This document shows positions 35,041 to 42,982 of a stretch of DNA of 59,035 nucleotides, piece by piece. The notes below the pieces were generated by a model, which did no database searches, was not told the DNA's origin, and saw only the letters and a list, made by a program, of their open reading frames with translations. Source of the stretch: Parapedobacter tibetensis (GTDB taxonomy: Bacteria > Bacteroidota > Bacteroidia > Sphingobacteriales > Sphingobacteriaceae). The DNA lies in contig NZ_JAMXBE010000020.1 of assembly GCF_024704835.1 (NCBI RefSeq), positions 1 through 59,035 of the forward strand, read 5' to 3'. The translations under genes were made by a program, and so were the position numbers. Every line of letters starts with the position of its first letter. Within the stretch, counting starts at the first letter, position 1.

Positions 35041-35949
35041 CTACATTTGCCGATTATTAATTTCTTCCACCAAAATTTCCGCAGTCCTGTTCATAGTAAG
35101 TTCATCCTTATCCCTGAACCATTTATAAAAAATATCGAAAATCAAAGGCGCATTTACGCGATTATCGTAAATCCCATCCTGTATCCTGCGGGCTTCGATA
35201 TCTAACTCGTTTTTGGAAATTGTATTTGCCAAAATCCCACGCCACGTTTCATTTATATAGCTAGCTAGCTTAGTCAGGCGCCAATCCATATCCTTATTAT
35301 CGTTGTATTGTTTGATCGTGAATTGGAAAAATGGCACGAGGGCACTGGATATAAGCACAAACTGGATGAGTGGAATGTCGTCCAGAAAACCAATGACCAG
35401 GATGGTCAAAGGCACCAGTACGGTTATGGTTTTCAATAGAGCACAATATTTTTTGCGTAGGTTTTTGTCCCACCAGCAACTTGACCGTTGACAGATGATG
35501 CGTGCGATTGAAATGTCGACCCGTGAAACAACTTTTGGATACCAGTCTTTTATCTTTTCAATGTTGGTTGCGATTTTTTTGTGAGCCTCGTAATGCAGGA
35601 GAACTTCTTCCACATTGACGTCTTCCACCACTTTGAGGGGAGAATGGTTTAACGAGAGAACACTGCAATCGAAAAGCTCCTGAATCTTTGCTGCTTTGCC
35701 TTTCTTCCGGCTAATTGCGGGTTCTATAAATAGTATATCCAGCACAAAAACAATAACGCCATATAATGCGGAATATGGCGAAACCCCTACCAGAAAAAGG
35801 GAGAAAACGGATAATATAACCGGAACAAGCAATGTAAGTATGGTTTGTAGACCAAAATAGTTTTTTGCCGCGGAATATAATTCTCGCTGCGCAGCAAGCC
35901 GTTCCAGTTCCCTTGGTTCGTTTTGACGGATTGGTATATCGTTCATCAT
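35041..35949 (-). CDS. S-4TM family putative pore-forming effector of CBASS
   Basis: 302 residues with four transmembrane segments in two pairs (about 35-57, 60-78, 168-186, 190-208) and a long cytosolic C-terminus. The pattern matches the S-4TM family predicted to form pores when activated by cyclic nucleotides. It is the last gene of an operon with a CD-NTase and an E2-like protein, 30 nt downstream of the latter. It would kill or arrest the infected cell by breaching the membrane; this follows from family knowledge and context. Confidence 0.82.
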   Translation of the reverse strand: MMNDIPIRQNEPRELERLAAQRELYSAAKNYFGLQTILTLLVPVILSVFSLFLVGVSPYSALYGVIVFVLDILFIEPAISRKKGKAAKIQELFDCSVLSLNHSPLKVVEDVNVEEVLLHYEAHKKIATNIEKIKDWYPKVVSRVDISIARIICQRSSCWWDKNLRKKYCALLKTITVLVPLTILVIGFLDDIPLIQFVLISSALVPFFQFTIKQYNDNKDMDWRLTKLASYINETWRGILANTISKNELDIEARRIQDGIYDNRVNAPLIFDIFYKWFRDKDELTMNRTAEILVEEINNRQM

Positions 35950-35979: not shown

Positions 35980-36387
35980 CTATAGACCGTGCGGCACTTC
36001 CGGGCCTATCCAATCCCCATTTTGGAGCCAGTATTCGTAAAAATAGATCCAACCCGCTATCCACCCCATGATTTCATTGGCTACCAACTTGCTTTTTACC
36101 CATTTGAAATTATCGGGGTGGTACAAACATAGCGATTGGGTGTTGGAATATATATGGGGAGCTCCTACTACAGGCACAGGATCAAGTATATACACACGTG
36201 GCGAGTTGTCATCCCTGTAAACCACTTCTATGGTATACACGGGAAGCTCCGGCTTAACTTGCAACGGGCCTTTGAAAGAAATATTCCCGTCTTTCCCACG
36301 CTTTGCTTTGAATTGGGGGTATTTGGATTTCATAGCCATGATTTGCACCGTTGGGTCATATTTTCTATTCTTTTGATAAGCCGCCAT
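35980..36387 (-). CDS. E2-like (Cap2-short type) protein of CBASS
   Basis: 135 residues from MAAYQKNRKY at 36387; a start at 36450 would deepen the overlap with the CD-NTase gene from 23 to 86 bp. The fold pattern fits the prokaryotic E2 family: a beta-meander core with VYTIEVVYRDDNSPRVYIL, the likely catalytic Cys87 in NTQSLCLYHPD, and the signature end AGWIYFYEYWLQNGDWIG. No E1 domain and no JAB peptidase are present, as in short type II CBASS. It would conjugate or prime the CD-NTase. The Cys assignment is inference. Confidence 0.72.
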   Translation of the reverse strand: MAAYQKNRKYDPTVQIMAMKSKYPQFKAKRGKDGNISFKGPLQVKPELPVYTIEVVYRDDNSPRVYILDPVPVVGAPHIYSNTQSLCLYHPDNFKWVKSKLVANEIMGWIAGWIYFYEYWLQNGDWIGPEVPHGL

Positions 36388-37339
36388 GATACCCTCTTGA
36401 TGCGCCGATTGAATAACCCGAAACCGTTGATAATAAACCTGTGCCTGCAACTTTCAAAGTGCCTTCACTGATGGCCTTTGAGAAATTCTTGGCCTCTTCC
36501 GGATCGATGGTAGGGAAGTCTCGTCCGAAAATATCTTTCCATATCAAGATTGCTTCGGACTCTTTAGTTTCTGAGCATTTTCCAGCGGCTTCTTCCAACT
36601 TTTTTACGACCCTGTTAACCTTTTCAATGGCTTTCTCGTATTGGCTATATGATTTGAATGTTGAAGATATCAAATACGATCCGGCATGCTTAAACCACAG
36701 CTCAATTCCTTCCTGGAAATTTTTAAAATCATAGATGGAAAAGATAGTAATGGCCACCTCTTCAATATGGTAAGACAGGATTAGTTTATCCAAATCTCGA
36801 TTCCAATATTTCACGGCCTTGATAACCGGCTTGACTTTATAATACCGTTCTTTATGAATGATATCCAAATCCGTTTGCAATTTTTCAGGATAGCTATACG
36901 TCCAGCCACTAAGGTCATGGTTTGGGATTTGGTACCCACCTCCATATACTTGAAAACAAGGTAGGATATCGAAATGCTTATCCGATAATTTTACGGTAAC
37001 GCAGGGTCTATCCTGTTTCACCTTTCCCTTGTAATCGGGAACATCGTCCAGGTAAGCTTTAATGGTCGTCAACACAGTTTGGGGATTCGGTAATCGGCCA
37101 AAATCATCCTGCCATTTCTCTGTATCCAGTATTGCAAAAACATCAATGTCATTCAAAGGCCTTATAATCGTATCCCGCTCATAAGAACCGTTTGTGAACG
37201 TACGCCTCACATACAGTCCATTGTCCTTGTTCTTAAGGTAATAGTTTATGTTGTCCAAAGAAACTCTGATGCTGCTTTCCTGCCTGTCGGTTACCGAAAT
37301 GTTGTCGATAAATCGATTAATAGCTTGTAATAGTGTCAT
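36365..37339 (-). CDS. CD-NTase (CBASS cyclic oligonucleotide synthase)
   Basis: 324 residues with the SMODS-type nucleotidyltransferase core: NGSYERDTIIR with Gly51-Ser52, metal-binding Asp64 and Asp66 in LNDIDVF, and third Asp124 in HFDILP. The helical C-terminal part is typical of the family. The very C-terminus is glycine-rich (GYHGGLSKE) but ends in Glu rather than the Gly or Ala expected at a Cap2 conjugation site. It is first in the CBASS operon and overlaps the E2-like gene. Confidence 0.87.
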   Translation of the reverse strand: MTLLQAINRFIDNISVTDRQESSIRVSLDNINYYLKNKDNGLYVRRTFTNGSYERDTIIRPLNDIDVFAILDTEKWQDDFGRLPNPQTVLTTIKAYLDDVPDYKGKVKQDRPCVTVKLSDKHFDILPCFQVYGGGYQIPNHDLSGWTYSYPEKLQTDLDIIHKERYYKVKPVIKAVKYWNRDLDKLILSYHIEEVAITIFSIYDFKNFQEGIELWFKHAGSYLISSTFKSYSQYEKAIEKVNRVVKKLEEAAGKCSETKESEAILIWKDIFGRDFPTIDPEEAKNFSKAISEGTLKVAGTGLLSTVSGYSIGASRGYHGGLSKE

Positions 37340-37452
37340 ACTCTTGTGTTTTAAATTTAATTCCTATATTGTTCCGGGATTTTTTTTGCGTCCCGTAAAT
37401 AGTACCAAAACCGTTACCAACGTTTTTAGGTATGTCATTATGACGGCCTTTT
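37340..37452. promoter_or_regulatory. Divergent control region between CBASS and the sigma/peptidase cassette
   Basis: 113 nt. It contains CGGGA/TCCCG arms around a T-rich loop (about 37375-37395) and an imperfect inverted repeat AAAACCGTT-acc-AACGTTTT at 37407-37426, placed almost midway between the two starts. A regulator bound here could act on both operons. No clear TAnnTTTG box faces the CBASS side. Confidence 0.45.
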
Positions 37453-38121
37453 ATGGACTGGAAGGAATTAGAAAGTGAGACCACGGAGACACTGATTCAG
37501 TACATCCAATGGAGAAATGACCCGCAGTTGAAAGATGCGGCCGATGCTGCTTTCAATGCTTTCTGCTTCCGTTTCCAGAAAGATGTGTTTCATAAGTGTT
37601 TGGTTATTTGCCGTAACAGGGGATACGATCAGGAGGTCGCTTACGATTTGGCCCAACGTACGTTTGAAAGGTTTATTAAATATCCGAACTTTGATTTTAG
37701 TAAATCCAAGGTAAAGGATTTCGACAATGGTGTTAGATTTTATCTCTATCGCTTCGCAGCTAATCTGCTCAATGACATGTATAATGAGCAGAATAACCCA
37801 AATCCGAGTCCTTATACCGGGGAAGAGGATTTGGTCTACGAATTTCCTGAGATTCCCGATTCTCATTTTAAATCAGAGCAATTAAGGACTCTAAAAGAAA
37901 AACGGGAGCTCATCTTAAAGACTTTAGATAGATTAGGGCCGAAGCACAAAATTATTTATTTGACTTATCAGCAATATGCAGTGAACGGGTTCAAATTGCC
38001 ACGACAATTGACAGAGAAACTCAGAACACGATTAGAGCTCACGCAGGCAACAATTCAATTTTATAAAAAAGAGGCGTTCGATAAGATCGCAGAATATTTG
38101 GAGATTTATGGCTCAAAGTAA
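37453..38121 (+). CDS. Sigma-70 family (ECF-like) sigma factor
   Basis: 222 residues. Region 2 (about 28-100) includes DVFHKCLVICRNRGYDQEVA, YDLAQRTFERFIKYPNF and YRFAANLLNDM. Region 4 (about 150-215) has LGPKHKIIYLTYQQYAVNGF, followed by an HTH-like TQATIQFYKKEAFDKI. It is transcribed away from the CBASS operon from a shared 113-nt spacer and overlaps the next gene by 14 bp. Its target promoters are unknown; the CBASS promoter is the nearest candidate. Confidence 0.75.
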   Translation: MDWKELESETTETLIQYIQWRNDPQLKDAADAAFNAFCFRFQKDVFHKCLVICRNRGYDQEVAYDLAQRTFERFIKYPNFDFSKSKVKDFDNGVRFYLYRFAANLLNDMYNEQNNPNPSPYTGEEDLVYEFPEIPDSHFKSEQLRTLKEKRELILKTLDRLGPKHKIIYLTYQQYAVNGFKLPRQLTEKLRTRLELTQATIQFYKKEAFDKIAEYLEIYGSK

Positions 38122-38464
38122 AATCCATATCACACCGGACAATATGTCTGAATGGCTTGCGTCCACAGGCTTCCTGTTTCCGAGGAATGAATTGGAGTTG
38201 GCGAGATTTGATAGGCTGTACCCTGTTGAAGAAGAAGGCATTGGTGGTTTTCAAGTGGATTGCCAAGCTATTCTTGATGGTACGGCAAAAACCTCTAAAC
38301 GTATTACCTTAGCACGTGAAGCCAAGGAAGGAGACATTATACCTCTCCGAATGGTGGCAAGGAAAGGCGGTAATTTACCCAAACATATCCTTGACAAAAT
38401 CAAGAAAAATCAGGATGGCCGAAGCAAGGATAATCCCGGATCACCGGAAGAAGGAACTGAATAG
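38108..38464 (+). CDS. 118-aa partner of the sigma factor and ImmA/IrrE peptidase
   Basis: No family recognised. The N-terminal part (MSEWLASTGFLFPRNELELARF) is helical, the centre is compact, and the C-terminal 35 residues are polar and probably disordered (NQDGRSKDNPGSPEEG). It overlaps the sigma gene by 14 bp and the peptidase gene by 50 bp, so the three are produced together. By analogy with ImmR/ImmA and CapH/CapP pairs it could be the protein cleaved by the peptidase, perhaps an anti-sigma factor. That is inference. Confidence 0.6.
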   Translation: MAQSKIHITPDNMSEWLASTGFLFPRNELELARFDRLYPVEEEGIGGFQVDCQAILDGTAKTSKRITLAREAKEGDIIPLRMVARKGGNLPKHILDKIKKNQDGRSKDNPGSPEEGTE

Positions 38465-39239
38465 GATTGCAGATTTCGTATCGTCCATGTTTTCCGACAA
38501 GAATGTGACTCTTTTGGAGGAGATTGTCCGGTTTGAGAATCTGAACCTATACGTGGATCATTATGAGAATTATTTTGACGGGATGCTTGTTTATGATGAC
38601 AACGAGTTTCATATCCACATCAATCAAGACAGAGGCAATGATTTGCATACAAATCGCGGTCGTTTTAGCTTAAGTCATGAATTGGCACATTATTATATAA
38701 ATGAACATAGGATAGGTTTGCAGTCCGGGCTTCTTGAACCTCACGCTTCGTTTACCGACGGCGGCAATAATGACCCCATCGAGTTGGAAGCAGACTATTT
38801 TGCGGGATGCTTATTGATGCCTTTTAAAAAGCTTTATTATTTTGATACGGTGAAGAAATTTTCTTTGGAAAAAATCAAAGCCATATCCGAAAGTTTTAAG
38901 GTAAGCCTGCTCGCTGCGGTTATCCGGTATTGCCAAACCTGCACACAAGAGTTAATGTTTGTCGTTTCAAGAAATAACACAGTGGAATGGTACGATAGAA
39001 ACGACCATTTTCCAAAATGGCCCTTTAGATTTAAGGTCAAGGGATCTTTGCCCCCAACAACAGTTGCTGGTGAATTCTTTACAAAAACTGATGCGAAGTT
39101 TACCACCGTTGAGGAAATCGAGCCGAACGATTGGTTTTATCCATTTCCAAATGACCATAGAGCTAATCGAAAAATGAATGAACAATGTTTTTATTCTGAC
39201 GGGTTTGGTTATGTGATAAGTCTTTTGTGGTTTCGGTGA
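38415..39239 (+). CDS. ImmA/IrrE-type zinc metallopeptidase
   Basis: 274 residues from the start MAEARIIPDH at 38415; 38316 is the first ATG in frame but lies deep in the upstream gene. The zinc motif SHELAHYYINEH has HELAH at 88-92, and ELEADYFAGCLLMP (123-136) supplies the third ligand. The C-terminal half (150-274) has no recognised domain and may be sensory. Family members switch on defence or mobile elements by cleaving a repressor (ImmR, CapH). Here the same strand encodes a sigma factor and a small protein. Confidence 0.82.
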   Translation: MAEARIIPDHRKKELNRIADFVSSMFSDKNVTLLEEIVRFENLNLYVDHYENYFDGMLVYDDNEFHIHINQDRGNDLHTNRGRFSLSHELAHYYINEHRIGLQSGLLEPHASFTDGGNNDPIELEADYFAGCLLMPFKKLYYFDTVKKFSLEKIKAISESFKVSLLAAVIRYCQTCTQELMFVVSRNNTVEWYDRNDHFPKWPFRFKVKGSLPPTTVAGEFFTKTDAKFTTVEEIEPNDWFYPFPNDHRANRKMNEQCFYSDGFGYVISLLWFR

Positions 39240-39314: not shown

Positions 39315-40007
39315 TCATGCATTTTGATTTGCTTTAACCCCTTTAATTACGTATTTAATTAAATCCCTTAAAAACAAAAATATACCATATAGCAATCCCC
39401 AAATTGCCAAAACTGTACATAACTTTCCAAAATTTTCATGCCAGTGATAACGAAAATTGTATAATACTCCATATACAACAAATAACAAAGGAACTATCTG
39501 AATAACCAAAATCGGAATACCTGTGAGTATGAATTTTACTAACGCTGACATACATCCTTTGTCAGTACCCTTAATTTCCATTAATTCGTATAATGGCTTA
39601 TAAGGAATAATTAAGCCCGTTACTTGATCTAATCCCGCTGCGTTCGAAGCTGGACCACCAAACTCTATATGATTGAGTTTTGCAAAGACTTTCCGATATG
39701 TTATTTCCAATTCATTACGAAAAAACATCTGCTTTATGTAAAACGCAAACAATACGGAGATAAAAGCCGGAACTGCTTGACCCACTACTTTCAAATCCTT
39801 GATACTGATGCCCAATAGACTTATCGACGTCTCTTCATTTGACGATAGGAGTAAGAAATGTATCAATACCAACCCAAACATCCATTTGTGATACAAATTA
39901 AGTCGGTTGGCTGTATTATTTAATGACTCGAATATTCTGTTTTCGAATCCTTTAAGGCTTTCATTTTCCCTGCCGTTAATAAACTGTTCAACAATCGGAT
40001 TGATCAT
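39315..40007 (-). CDS. Four-span membrane protein, unknown
   Basis: 230 residues with transmembrane segments near 42-56, 76-94, 158-182 and 193-212. The cytosolic middle (95-155) includes NELEITYRKVFAKLNHIEF. No family recognised. It lies 64 nt downstream of the RES gene and could be the last gene of the sce7726-sce7725-RES operon, or independent. It converges with the ImmA/IrrE gene. Confidence 0.55.
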   Translation of the reverse strand: MINPIVEQFINGRENESLKGFENRIFESLNNTANRLNLYHKWMFGLVLIHFLLLSSNEETSISLLGISIKDLKVVGQAVPAFISVLFAFYIKQMFFRNELEITYRKVFAKLNHIEFGGPASNAAGLDQVTGLIIPYKPLYELMEIKGTDKGCMSALVKFILTGIPILVIQIVPLLFVVYGVLYNFRYHWHENFGKLCTVLAIWGLLYGIFLFLRDLIKYVIKGVKANQNA

Positions 40008-40071
40008 AAAATTTTAAATTTATTAAAAAAATGATGTCTTGAAATTTTGTCTAAATAACTCGAAAATTAGA

Positions 40072-41142
40072 TTATACCCATTTGTATTTAAGCCCTTGAA
40101 CCTGATAAAATTTCGCATTTACACACTCCAGCTTGTCATCATTAAATATGGCTAAATTATATCCACTCGCATTCATGGCGCTACGGTATTCAATAGCATC
40201 AAATCCTTTAGATTTGATATACTCGCATAGAAACTGTGTTGGCAAGTAATCCAAATGGACATCTTGCTTACGTACCGGCTTGGAGAGTTCATCTTCCAGT
40301 TTGATCAGATATGGCCTGATCTCGATAAATTCGTCAATGGTAAAACCCATATCTTGAACCTCGAATGGACCGTAATCGGCGATATTCTTTAGCGATATAA
40401 CCTGCAACGGCTTATATACGACAAATTGGCCAATAGAGATACTCTCATGAAGTGCGATACGGGTTTCATACAGTGTGGTTTGCTCGCTATCAGATACATA
40501 AAGGTAAGGAATACCAACAGGATTTGCTCGGCCTGGCGTAGTCGTTTCGACTGGGGGCTTACTTAATTGGATACATTCCAACGGCTTGTCGCTAATTCGA
40601 GCACGATAAAATACATGTCCTGCGGGATAGGTCTTGGCAAATCTTAAAAGCGTAGATTCCAACACATCCAAATCTAGTGCATCGGAAAGAAAGAAACGAT
40701 TTTTATGCTTTATCCCTTTGGCAAAGGAATCCCATTGCAATTCGAGGTCATTGGAGTAGGGTTTATCCTTATCAACAAAAGCCGAAAACTCAACAGGCGA
40801 TTCAAAGAGTTCTTTTGTGGCAAGCCAATACTCTTGACCAATATGACGGACAAGCTGCTTGATATCCTTTTTCTTCAGCTTAGCGATATTGAATAGTCTT
40901 GGCCAATACGTTGCAATATGCTCATGAATTAAAATGGGAGCATCCTTTTTCAACGAGTTGACTGCTGTAGGATGGTTGATGTATAAATTAAATAGTGACT
41001 CAAAACTTTCAGCCAATTCACCACAGTCAATAACGACGCCACCGGTTGATTCGCAAAAATCACAGTTCCCAACCGTTGACGACATGGCCTGAATCCTACT
41101 TTTAAATCCTTGATCGGAAAAGCAGTTTACACAACAATTCAT
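40072..41142 (-). CDS. RES-domain protein with zinc-ribbon and HEPN-like N-terminus
   Basis: 356 residues. The N-terminus has two Cys pairs (CVNC, CDFC) of a zinc ribbon, then a helical region of the HEPN/RES-NTD1 type (about 45-160). The RES domain spans about 180-340, with the conserved Arg in VFYRARI, the Glu region SEQTTLYETRIA and a C-terminal DAIEYRSAM. Characterised RES toxins degrade NAD+ by phosphorolysis. It follows sce7725 by 8 nt, so the three genes are one operon and the RES domain is its probable effector. Confidence 0.8.
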   Translation of the reverse strand: MNCCVNCFSDQGFKSRIQAMSSTVGNCDFCESTGGVVIDCGELAESFESLFNLYINHPTAVNSLKKDAPILIHEHIATYWPRLFNIAKLKKKDIKQLVRHIGQEYWLATKELFESPVEFSAFVDKDKPYSNDLELQWDSFAKGIKHKNRFFLSDALDLDVLESTLLRFAKTYPAGHVFYRARISDKPLECIQLSKPPVETTTPGRANPVGIPYLYVSDSEQTTLYETRIALHESISIGQFVVYKPLQVISLKNIADYGPFEVQDMGFTIDEFIEIRPYLIKLEDELSKPVRKQDVHLDYLPTQFLCEYIKSKGFDAIEYRSAMNASGYNLAIFNDDKLECVNAKFYQVQGLKYKWV

Positions 41143-41150
41143 TGGCCGGT

Positions 41151-42086
41151 TTAGATTAAGGATTGCACTAACTCGATATGATGCATGATGGATAACTTCT
41201 TGATCACACCTAGTCCGGGGAATGCTTGCCGGTCATAATAATCTTGGAATTGCCTAACAGCTACACTATCAATGTGAGCAGCGTCCACGAAAACAATCAA
41301 CTTAGTCAACGCTTCATAAAACTTGCCTGCCGGATCATTATAATCATCGTTGGTATCAGACACGAAATGGTGGATACGGATATCGTCACCTCCCTCATCT
41401 TTGTAGGTTAAATGTATGGCAACTGCACGGGGGAGCATGCCGCCATCTACGAAATCTTCTCCAATGGTAAGATAATCACCAAAAGCAACATACCCTTCTT
41501 CACGATAATACAGGTAATCGCTCGAAAAAATCTCATCATCAGGATCCAAATAATCTGCATTTTTTTGTCGCTTAGTAAATGGATCATTCAAGAATGCCAG
41601 TGGTAGTGGCCGATATTTACGCTGTAGGGCAAACAGTTGGTTAATCTGTATCATATTATACAAACAATTTGTTGTCTTCGCCAATACACTCAACTCATCG
41701 GTGGCGCCAATCTGGTTGAGATGGATAAGGGAATACCCAGTTTGGTCATAGCCTTGCTCACTAATTGTATTTGCGACAAGCAACTGATCTTTATTAGTAT
41801 TTACTAAAAAAGTGGGGATAACGTTCGTCGCACCAGCCGCCGTCAAATGTTCAATTAATGAAATAACTTCATTGGATCGAGCTACAAGATCGCCATATTG
41901 CGGATTAACAATGAGTTGTACACGTATTCCTTTTTTTGCTAGGGCGGATATTGCCGTTTCGACACCTTTGGTATTCCGTTTTAAAGGTTCTATAATTGGT
42001 ATGACTTTATCCGGATTAAGAATACCCGACAACTCACGCAAAGCGATAAGTTCAAATTGCTTGCCCCGTAGGTAAGGAAAATACAT
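41151..42086 (-). CDS. sce7725 family protein (beta-protein-like)
   Basis: 311 residues beginning MYFPYLRGKQFELIALRELS, the hallmark opening of the sce7725/beta protein family. That family is annotated next to sce7726 proteins in many genomes. The fold may be TIM-barrel-like (repeated VIPIIEPL, VIPTFLVN blocks), but no activity is known. It lies 11 nt after sce7726 and 8 nt before RES. Confidence 0.75.
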   Translation of the reverse strand: MYFPYLRGKQFELIALRELSGILNPDKVIPIIEPLKRNTKGVETAISALAKKGIRVQLIVNPQYGDLVARSNEVISLIEHLTAAGATNVIPTFLVNTNKDQLLVANTISEQGYDQTGYSLIHLNQIGATDELSVLAKTTNCLYNMIQINQLFALQRKYRPLPLAFLNDPFTKRQKNADYLDPDDEIFSSDYLYYREEGYVAFGDYLTIGEDFVDGGMLPRAVAIHLTYKDEGGDDIRIHHFVSDTNDDYNDPAGKFYEALTKLIVFVDAAHIDSVAVRQFQDYYDRQAFPGLGVIKKLSIMHHIELVQSLI

Positions 42087-42097
42087 AGGCTGAAGGT

Positions 42098-42982
42098 TTA
42101 AATGTTAGTTTTCAATATCTTCTGTAGGCTAAGATAATGATTTTCATTTAAACCAAGGGTATAAAAAGAGAATTTCAGGTAGTGTGGAAGATCGTATTCG
42201 TCGATAACGCGATTGGTTTCCCCGCAAATACGGCACTTGATGATGAAATGGTAATGATGCTGCACTTCTTCTACAGGAAAATCGGCCAAAATGGCTAAGC
42301 AGGTTTTGAAAAGATGCACTGGGGTGACATCCGGTACAAACCCTACCAGACTTCTTACTAGCTCTAAATATTCGGCCTTACGCAAGGATCTCATCATCGT
42401 GCCGGCATCAAGCAAGCTATTGTCTACCGCGGCTTCACGGCTTTCCAACACCTCCCCACCATCTGTAAACAGGATTAAGCCTACTTTTTCTTCAACCACG
42501 CTACGATACTTTGCTTCTAGCCTTTCATGTACGAAAAGATATACTTGCGAGAAGGCTTTATAATAATCGGCAAGCTGGGTGTTGAGCCGATCGGGAGTGT
42601 CTAACTCAGTCTTGATTTCGAACACCTTGTTTGTCCCATTTACCAGCACGGCATCAGCTACGGATTTACTAATACGAAATTCATTGAGCAGAATTGTATC
42701 GTCTAGTGAATACTTTCGAAGGATATATTGATTTAACAGAGCTGACTTGTATAAGTATTCGTGGCGATATTCCCGGAGCAGGCTTTGGTATGCCGTTGCA
42801 AGCAATTGACTTATGGTTTCCGGCCGGTCTACTTCCATCTGCTCCCAAGAAAGATACCGTTTCATGCGCTTGATATAGCCGGGCCGTTTTGAACCAGTCA
42901 TCAGGTACTTGAACCCAGCATTGGACATCAATTGTGCCAATGAACGGGCATCGACTTTAGGGGCCGTAGCTACAGGGGTCAT
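42098..42982 (-). CDS. sce7726 family protein, PD-(D/E)xK nuclease-like
   Basis: 294 residues. The central part contains NEFRISKSVADAVLVNG followed by KVFEIKTELD, giving the Asp...Glu-x-Lys arrangement of PD-(D/E)xK nucleases, then LADYYKAFSQVYLFV. The C-terminus has a Cys pair (CRICGETN) that may bind zinc. The pairing with sce7725 is a known but unexplained gene association. First gene of the operon. Confidence 0.75.
   Translation of the reverse strand: MTPVATAPKVDARSLAQLMSNAGFKYLMTGSKRPGYIKRMKRYLSWEQMEVDRPETISQLLATAYQSLLREYRHEYLYKSALLNQYILRKYSLDDTILLNEFRISKSVADAVLVNGTNKVFEIKTELDTPDRLNTQLADYYKAFSQVYLFVHERLEAKYRSVVEEKVGLILFTDGGEVLESREAAVDNSLLDAGTMMRSLRKAEYLELVRSLVGFVPDVTPVHLFKTCLAILADFPVEEVQHHYHFIIKCRICGETNRVIDEYDLPHYLKFSFYTLGLNENHYLSLQKILKTNI

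Follow-up and report, generated by a model that had tools for sequence, protein, structure and literature searches.

A sigma factor, a small protein and a CapP-like peptidase as a proposed transcription controller of CBASS and other immune operons in Bacteroidota

CapW, CapH/CapP and CapK/CapS are reported to control CBASS-like operons by lifting a repressor. CapH/CapP is presented as a repressor combined with a metallopeptidase activated by single-stranded DNA, acting over CBASS and other immune operons, and PprI as activated by single-stranded DNA like CapP. The CapK/CapS partners given in PMC13373217 are CBASS, Bub, Bil, MBL and YegP, and also Thoeris and DUF4747. Two systems of CRISPR loci employ a sigma factor. 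CalpL, CalpT and CalpS of type III CRISPR are described in PMC11417357 as a protease, an inhibitor and an ECF sigma factor that form an immune transcription switch. For Csx29, Csx30 and CASP-sigma of type III-E CRISPR, PMC10028731 describes a protease that cuts an anti-sigma factor and frees an ECF-like sigma factor with sites in its own locus.

The window analyzed in this study is a stretch of 59,035 nt from Parapedobacter tibetensis. It contains a 222-aa ECF-like sigma factor, here called type A (37453..38121, + strand), a 118-aa small protein with the motif LRMVARK at residues 80-86, which is our proposed anti-sigma factor and CapP substrate (38108..38464, + strand), and a 274-aa CapP-like M78 metallopeptidase starting from ATG 38415, with GTG 38316 also open (38415..39239, + strand). 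The three frames overlap and form one operon, which is divergent from a CBASS operon encoding a CD-NTase of the SMODS type (36365..37339, - strand; Pfam/PADLOC-type profile matches), an E2-like protein whose real start is probably inside the ORF (35980..36450, - strand) and an S-4TM effector recognised by profile matches (35041..35949, - strand). An intergenic region of 113 nt (37340..37452) lies between the sigma and CD-NTase genes. The original prediction of a coupled trio divergent from CBASS over 113 nt was thus confirmed by the overlapping frames and the CBASS profile matches, and its first and last genes were also named correctly: a sigma-like fold is present in the former, and the ImmA/IrrE-type peptidase is a CapP-like M78 peptidase by profile matches.

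CapH/CapP is the closest described system in genes, and CalpL/CalpT/CalpS and Csx29/Csx30/CASP-sigma are the closest in mechanism. The trio shares with CapH/CapP the CapP-like peptidase, the place beside immune operons and a presumed damage input, but adds a sigma factor; its small protein has no detectable HTH, and the control we propose is positive, instead of or besides repression. In CalpL/CalpT/CalpS the protease is a Lon-SAVED protein activated by cA4, whereas here an M78 peptidase is found beside CBASS and other immune operons, and Pfam and PADLOC gave no match to a Lon or SAVED domain in the trio. Csx29/Csx30/CASP-sigma differs by its RNA-guided TPR-CHAT protease, its CRISPR setting and its lack of an M78 peptidase; profile searches gave no match to a TPR-CHAT protease or Csx30 in the trio. 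Like CapK/CapS and CapW/BrxR, the trio adjoins many kinds of immune operons, and its partner list overlaps that of CapK/CapS, of which Thoeris and DUF4747 were not seen beside the trio. Those controllers are kinase/STAS or WYL repressors without sigma factor or peptidase, and no GHKL kinase or STAS-wHTH repressor was matched in the three trio proteins. ImmR/ImmA and DdrO/IrrE(PprI) likewise use an M78-type metalloprotease to cut a regulator and so release transcription, but the substrate there is an HTH repressor, unlike in the trio as we propose it. A sigma/CapP module is described in no title or abstract of the searched CapP, CBASS and anti-sigma literature. What we propose is an immune-operon controller with a CapP-type protease that uses a sigma factor outside CRISPR.

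We consider it probable that the trio is a self-contained transcription controller of the immune operon opposite it: CapP would remove a small anti-sigma factor, and the freed sigma factor would transcribe the operon. The anti-sigma binding, the cleavage, the single-stranded DNA trigger and the use of the promoter element by the sigma factor are what we infer. The original prediction, which had the peptidase destroy an anti-sigma factor on damage and the sigma factor then transcribe CBASS, is partly supported. In the unstressed cell the sigma factor would be kept inactive by the small protein. On damage or infection, a signal that is most likely single-stranded DNA by homology to CapP and PprI would turn on the CapP-like peptidase, which may cut the small protein, possibly in a conserved and poorly ordered loop at about residues 80-86. 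The freed sigma factor would bring RNA polymerase to a shared near-symmetric promoter element, from which the immune operon would be transcribed, and it would probably transcribe its own operon too. The precedents of CalpL/CalpT/CalpS and Csx29/Csx30/CASP-sigma and the activation of CapP and PprI by single-stranded DNA support this reading.

An alignment of five members of the 118-aa family was scanned against a collection of 84,980 species, each represented by one genome. A total of 30 loci were found, and 29 of them have the order sigma factor, small protein, CapP, with the peptidase gene running off the sequence end in L050 and L066. Between the sigma and small-protein frames there is an overlap of 8-32 nt in 28 of 29 loci (for L041 measured from its aligned start) and a gap of 3 nt in L049. 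A sigma gene followed by its anti-sigma gene is the usual order, so that this arrangement and the nearly constant overlap argue for the proposed controller. The family is carried by five of 395 genomes drawn from the class, the window's own included, and one plasmid record contains the 118-aa protein. The records of the 30 loci are all titled Bacteroidota except L066, which is labelled Thalassovita and is probably a misbinned contig because its locus resembles Fulvivirga loci. In L044 the trio is decayed and the type A sigma gene was not detected; by eye, no immune operon was recognised beside it.

A second trio was found through the CD-NTase of the window, which has matches in seven of the 395 genomes, its own included. 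The closest other CD-NTase in this draw, at L080, is 69% identical; that of L037, an Olivibacter locus from the species-genome scan with a type A trio, is closer (81%). At L080 the same divergent place encodes a protein resembling sigma factors (TIGR02937, 3.4e-5), one of 140 aa and a CapP (7.5e-65); we call this trio type B. The 140-aa protein has no detectable similarity to the 118-aa family, and the sigma sets of the two types align weakly. This repetition of sigma factor, small protein and CapP with a dissimilar small protein supports the proposed controller. Type B trios face Bub (Pontibacter plasmid), BilABCD (L094), CBASS (L102) and YegP (L105), and that of L095 faces QatAB behind two other genes. 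A point against the proposed controller is that no trio was seen beside the other five of the six CD-NTase relatives in the available stretch, which extends upstream only about 600 nt in L085 and about 1.3 kb in L081. By eye, L082 has an XRE-peptidase fusion at the place of the trio, and in each of L081-L085, which lack a visible trio, the CBASS operon has a second gene of nucleotidyltransferase type (264-276 aa) next to it.

In a census of CapP among the 395 class genomes (PADLOC capP, E<=1e-30), the genes before each place were read. Twenty-four CapP-like places were found in 20 genomes, preceded by a sigma factor and a small protein in 16, by an XRE-like protein in seven and by neither in one. 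The XRE-type labels were given by eye; three of the seven come from one genome (G150) and four go with short peptidases of about 175-190 aa. Five of the sigma-type places are type A, three are diverged type A and eight are type B, with the sigma calls of L091, L093 and L106 made solely by similarity to the L080 sigma-like protein. Ten of these 16 places face a recognised immune operon (by E1-like matches only in L101 and L109), one faces YegP, two the same 417-aa protein in copies 72% identical, two an unclassified neighbour (L103 and L093) and one a contig end (L106). Within the 395-genome Bacteroidia sample, CapP occurs mainly in the sigma form.

In the window sigma factor the fold of sigma region 2 was found, from about residue 9, and the match to the region 4 fold is loose. 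This fold, together with the position of the small gene after the sigma gene in 29 loci, supports the proposed controller. TIGR02937 gave 34.9 bits, under its curated cut-off of 42.9, and the protein was therefore termed ECF-like and not filed as an ECF member. The sigma HMM scores of the trio sigma proteins, those of type B too, are under the curated cut-offs, which, with the loose region 4 match, counts against our reading. The type A sigma profile had no match at E<=0.1 among PDB sequences, though fold comparison matches. In viral contigs the sigma profile gave 54 pattern matches, none of which was confirmed.

Residues W16, S19, G21, P25, E30, A84, R85 and I94 are common to 27 aligned sequences of the 118-aa family. 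The AF2 model of the small protein contains only short helices (pLDDT 60, pTM 0.22), and the conserved motif lies in residues 79-87, which belong to the part with pLDDT below 50. Such a disordered model fits a protein that would fold on its partner and expose a protease site, and proves neither; it is also too poor to show an anti-sigma fold, which leaves that part of our reading weaker. The single sequence had no match at E<=10 among solved structures. A ligase structure was rejected as a relative of the family, its profile match (0.6) being at chance level.

The first alternative is that the 118-aa protein is a non-canonical repressor which sits on the palindrome described below and is cut by CapP, with the sigma factor merely amplifying afterwards, in line with the known CapH/CapP logic. 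The PADLOC capH profile does match the protein over most of its length (4.9e-12), each half alone gives a weak match, and a diverged repressor thus keeps some room against our reading. On the other side, Pfam found no HTH in the protein at E<=1, hhalign found no similarity of the type A and type B small proteins to XRE CapHs, and the low-confidence AF2 model has no HTH. The profile concerned (PDLC04142), presumably built from a mixed set, has matches at E<=0.01 in 364 of the 395 class genomes and in every one of the 14 control genomes, and because it matches nearly every genome a capH call alone says little. With these counts and the null XRE CapH comparisons, the match is weakened as a sign of XRE CapH homology, and it suggests that the PADLOC capH name can be assigned to a protein unlikely to be an HTH repressor. 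We lean to the view that the partner protein is not an XRE-type HTH repressor as in CapH. The small protein without Pfam HTH, without XRE CapH similarity and without a confident fold alone suits an anti-sigma factor.

The promoter regions bear on the same choice. The divergent region of the window contains a conserved quasi-palindrome, TACCAAAACCGTTACCAACGTTTTTAGGTA (37403..37432), which is the proposed control element of both operons and the sole zero-mismatch pattern match in its own genome. The site common to 16 type A loci, TACYAAAANCRTTACYAACGSTTTTNNGTA, is near-symmetric and located 9-54 nt before the sigma start. This set is without the nine flavobacterial loci, which by eye have another variant; for L053 an internal ATG was taken as the sigma start, and that of L049 was set by hand and is about 3 nt off. 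The element reaches 24.2 bits compared with at most 11.7 in 12 shuffled sets, though the shuffles ignore common descent. In most single loci the palindrome does not exceed shuffles, and only its recurrence across loci stands out. A plain back-to-back -35/-10 promoter pair was rejected for this element, since no second box is significant: in a set also without L037, the best -10-like box had 3.79 bits on the sigma side (28 of 40 nulls as high) and 4.79 bits on the immune-operon side (4 of 40). Eight type B loci have an element in common that scores 19.7 bits on one strand and 17.8 on the other; the highest values among 20 shuffled sets per strand were 16.4 and 16.2, descent again being ignored. 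Half-sites of TGNN, 18 nt and A(A/G)C(A/T), placed back-to-back with a fixed 18-nt gap, are present in five of nine type B loci and absent from four. A fixed gap is expected of a sigma promoter. Shuffles of those five loci gave the pattern in 0-5 of 2000 cases, a count that is descriptive because the pattern was derived from these sites after they had been seen. The recurrence of both elements favours the sigma-driven controller. Palindromic sites are typical of operators of dimeric repressors, and the palindromic type A element without a significant -10-like box and the four type B loci without paired half-sites speak against it. Overall, we judge CapH-like repression to be unlikely.

Less probable still, and doubtful in our view, is that the small protein acts on CapP as an adaptor or inhibitor, or that the protease cuts the sigma factor itself in a pro-sigma switch. 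Gene order and overlap tie all three proteins equally, and the peptidase lineage tracks the trio type. The window peptidase has the motifs HELAH and ELEADYFA, corresponding to a CapP-type M78 enzyme with HExxH and a downstream Glu, and the profile of the CapP-like peptidases matches structure 7t5t with an E value of 2.6e-21. The downstream-Glu motif was seen in 10 of 11 peptidases checked, L101 being without it. In a tree of 36 peptidases, type A and diverged type A constitute one side of a branch (100/99), and the groups of type B (90/71), of long XRE-linked and of short XRE-linked peptidases are on the other side. The sigma form is not one peptidase clade and thus needs two origins, or losses, under midpoint rooting. 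Against a pro-sigma switch, no pro-domain is evident on the window sigma factor, in which the region 2 match starts near the N-terminus; against both variants, the regulator that is cut in the known M78 and CRISPR-linked systems is a separate protein.

The divergent partners of the type A trio were compared in 25 non-redundant loci kept of 31, window included, after removal of near-copies (L046, L050 and L066 of L045, L061 of L060, L065 of L064) and of the decayed L044. CBASS is the partner in 17, of which 14 were called by PADLOC and three (L037, L048 and L056) were assigned by 78-91% identity to PADLOC-called CBASS loci. A Bub multi-ubiquitin operon is found in three (L039, L040 and L049; PF14452), and Pycsar (L038), an MBL-like operon with E1/JAB (L054) and YegP/DUF1508 (the L045 group) in one each; the partner gene is unclassified in two (L062 and L064). 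A recognised immune operon is thus the divergent neighbour in 22 of 25 loci, or 23 counting YegP. A further trio, on a Chryseobacterium plasmid, faces Pycsar. In some flavobacterial loci about 600 nt with short ORFs separate the trio from the immune operon. A conserved frame of about 40 codons on the - strand, about 100-250 nt before the sigma gene, was noticed by eye in L047, L051, L055 and similar loci.

The trios of L051, L054 and L058 are 88-97% identical yet face three different immune operons, namely CBASS with one cyclase type (and, by eye, a HORMA-like neighbour), the MBL-like operon and CBASS with another cyclase type. The trio therefore travels as an exchangeable cassette, and since the same trio adjoins many different defence operons it is probably a switch turning immunity genes on. 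This exchange among partners of many kinds, close to the CapK/CapS list, supports the proposed controller. The original prediction named a lack of recurring linkage as evidence against itself, and the trio was found to recur by CBASS, Pycsar, Bub, MBL-like/E1-JAB and YegP, and the second trio by CBASS, Bil, Qat, Bub and YegP. The name of CBASS switch proved too narrow for a module exchanged among Pycsar, Bub, MBL-like and YegP partners and, in type B, Bil and Qat. That the trio is an independent defence or toxin-antitoxin unit, which shares defence islands and does not control the immune operon, is suggested by L062 and L064 without a recognised immune operon and by the decayed L044, but is highly improbable in view of the 22 of 25 immune neighbours (23 with YegP, though some flavobacterial loci have the 600-nt spacing), the conserved element in the divergent region and the different trio at the same place in L080.

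Beyond this locus, we are inclined to think that innate immune operons of Bacteroidota are commonly controlled, in a positive sense, by exchangeable sigma factors dedicated to them, each held by its own small anti-sigma factor and freed by a CapP-type damage-sensing peptidase, with a near-symmetric promoter firing both ways. There would be at least two forms, types A and B, making up the majority CapP form in the Bacteroidia sampled (16 of 24 places, 395 genomes). If this is true, a dedicated sigma factor denotes active control of suicidal immunity, as opposed to the lifting of a repressor, and brings innate operons under a protease/anti-sigma/sigma logic known until now from CRISPR loci. The way in which Bacteroidota silence these operons becomes directly testable. 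The signature of sigma factor, small protein and CapP can also be used to search for immune genes not yet described, one candidate being the 417-aa protein found opposite trios of both types.

This protein, of 416-417 aa and 72% identical between its copies, faces the type A trio of L062 (7435-8688, - strand) and the type B trio of L104 (5141-6391, - strand). The L062 copy has no Pfam or PADLOC match, and the protein is a candidate new immune gene. YegP/DUF1508-like proteins that are 62% identical also face both types, in L105 (6335-6679, - strand) type B and in L045 (8916-9269, - strand) type A. Beyond the peptidase gene of the window, positions 39315-42982 on the - strand encode a 230-aa protein without matches, a RES/HEPN-RES protein, a sce7725-family protein and a sce7726-family protein, the last with a PADLOC cll match as well (5.5e-13); this is possibly a further defence or toxin cluster.
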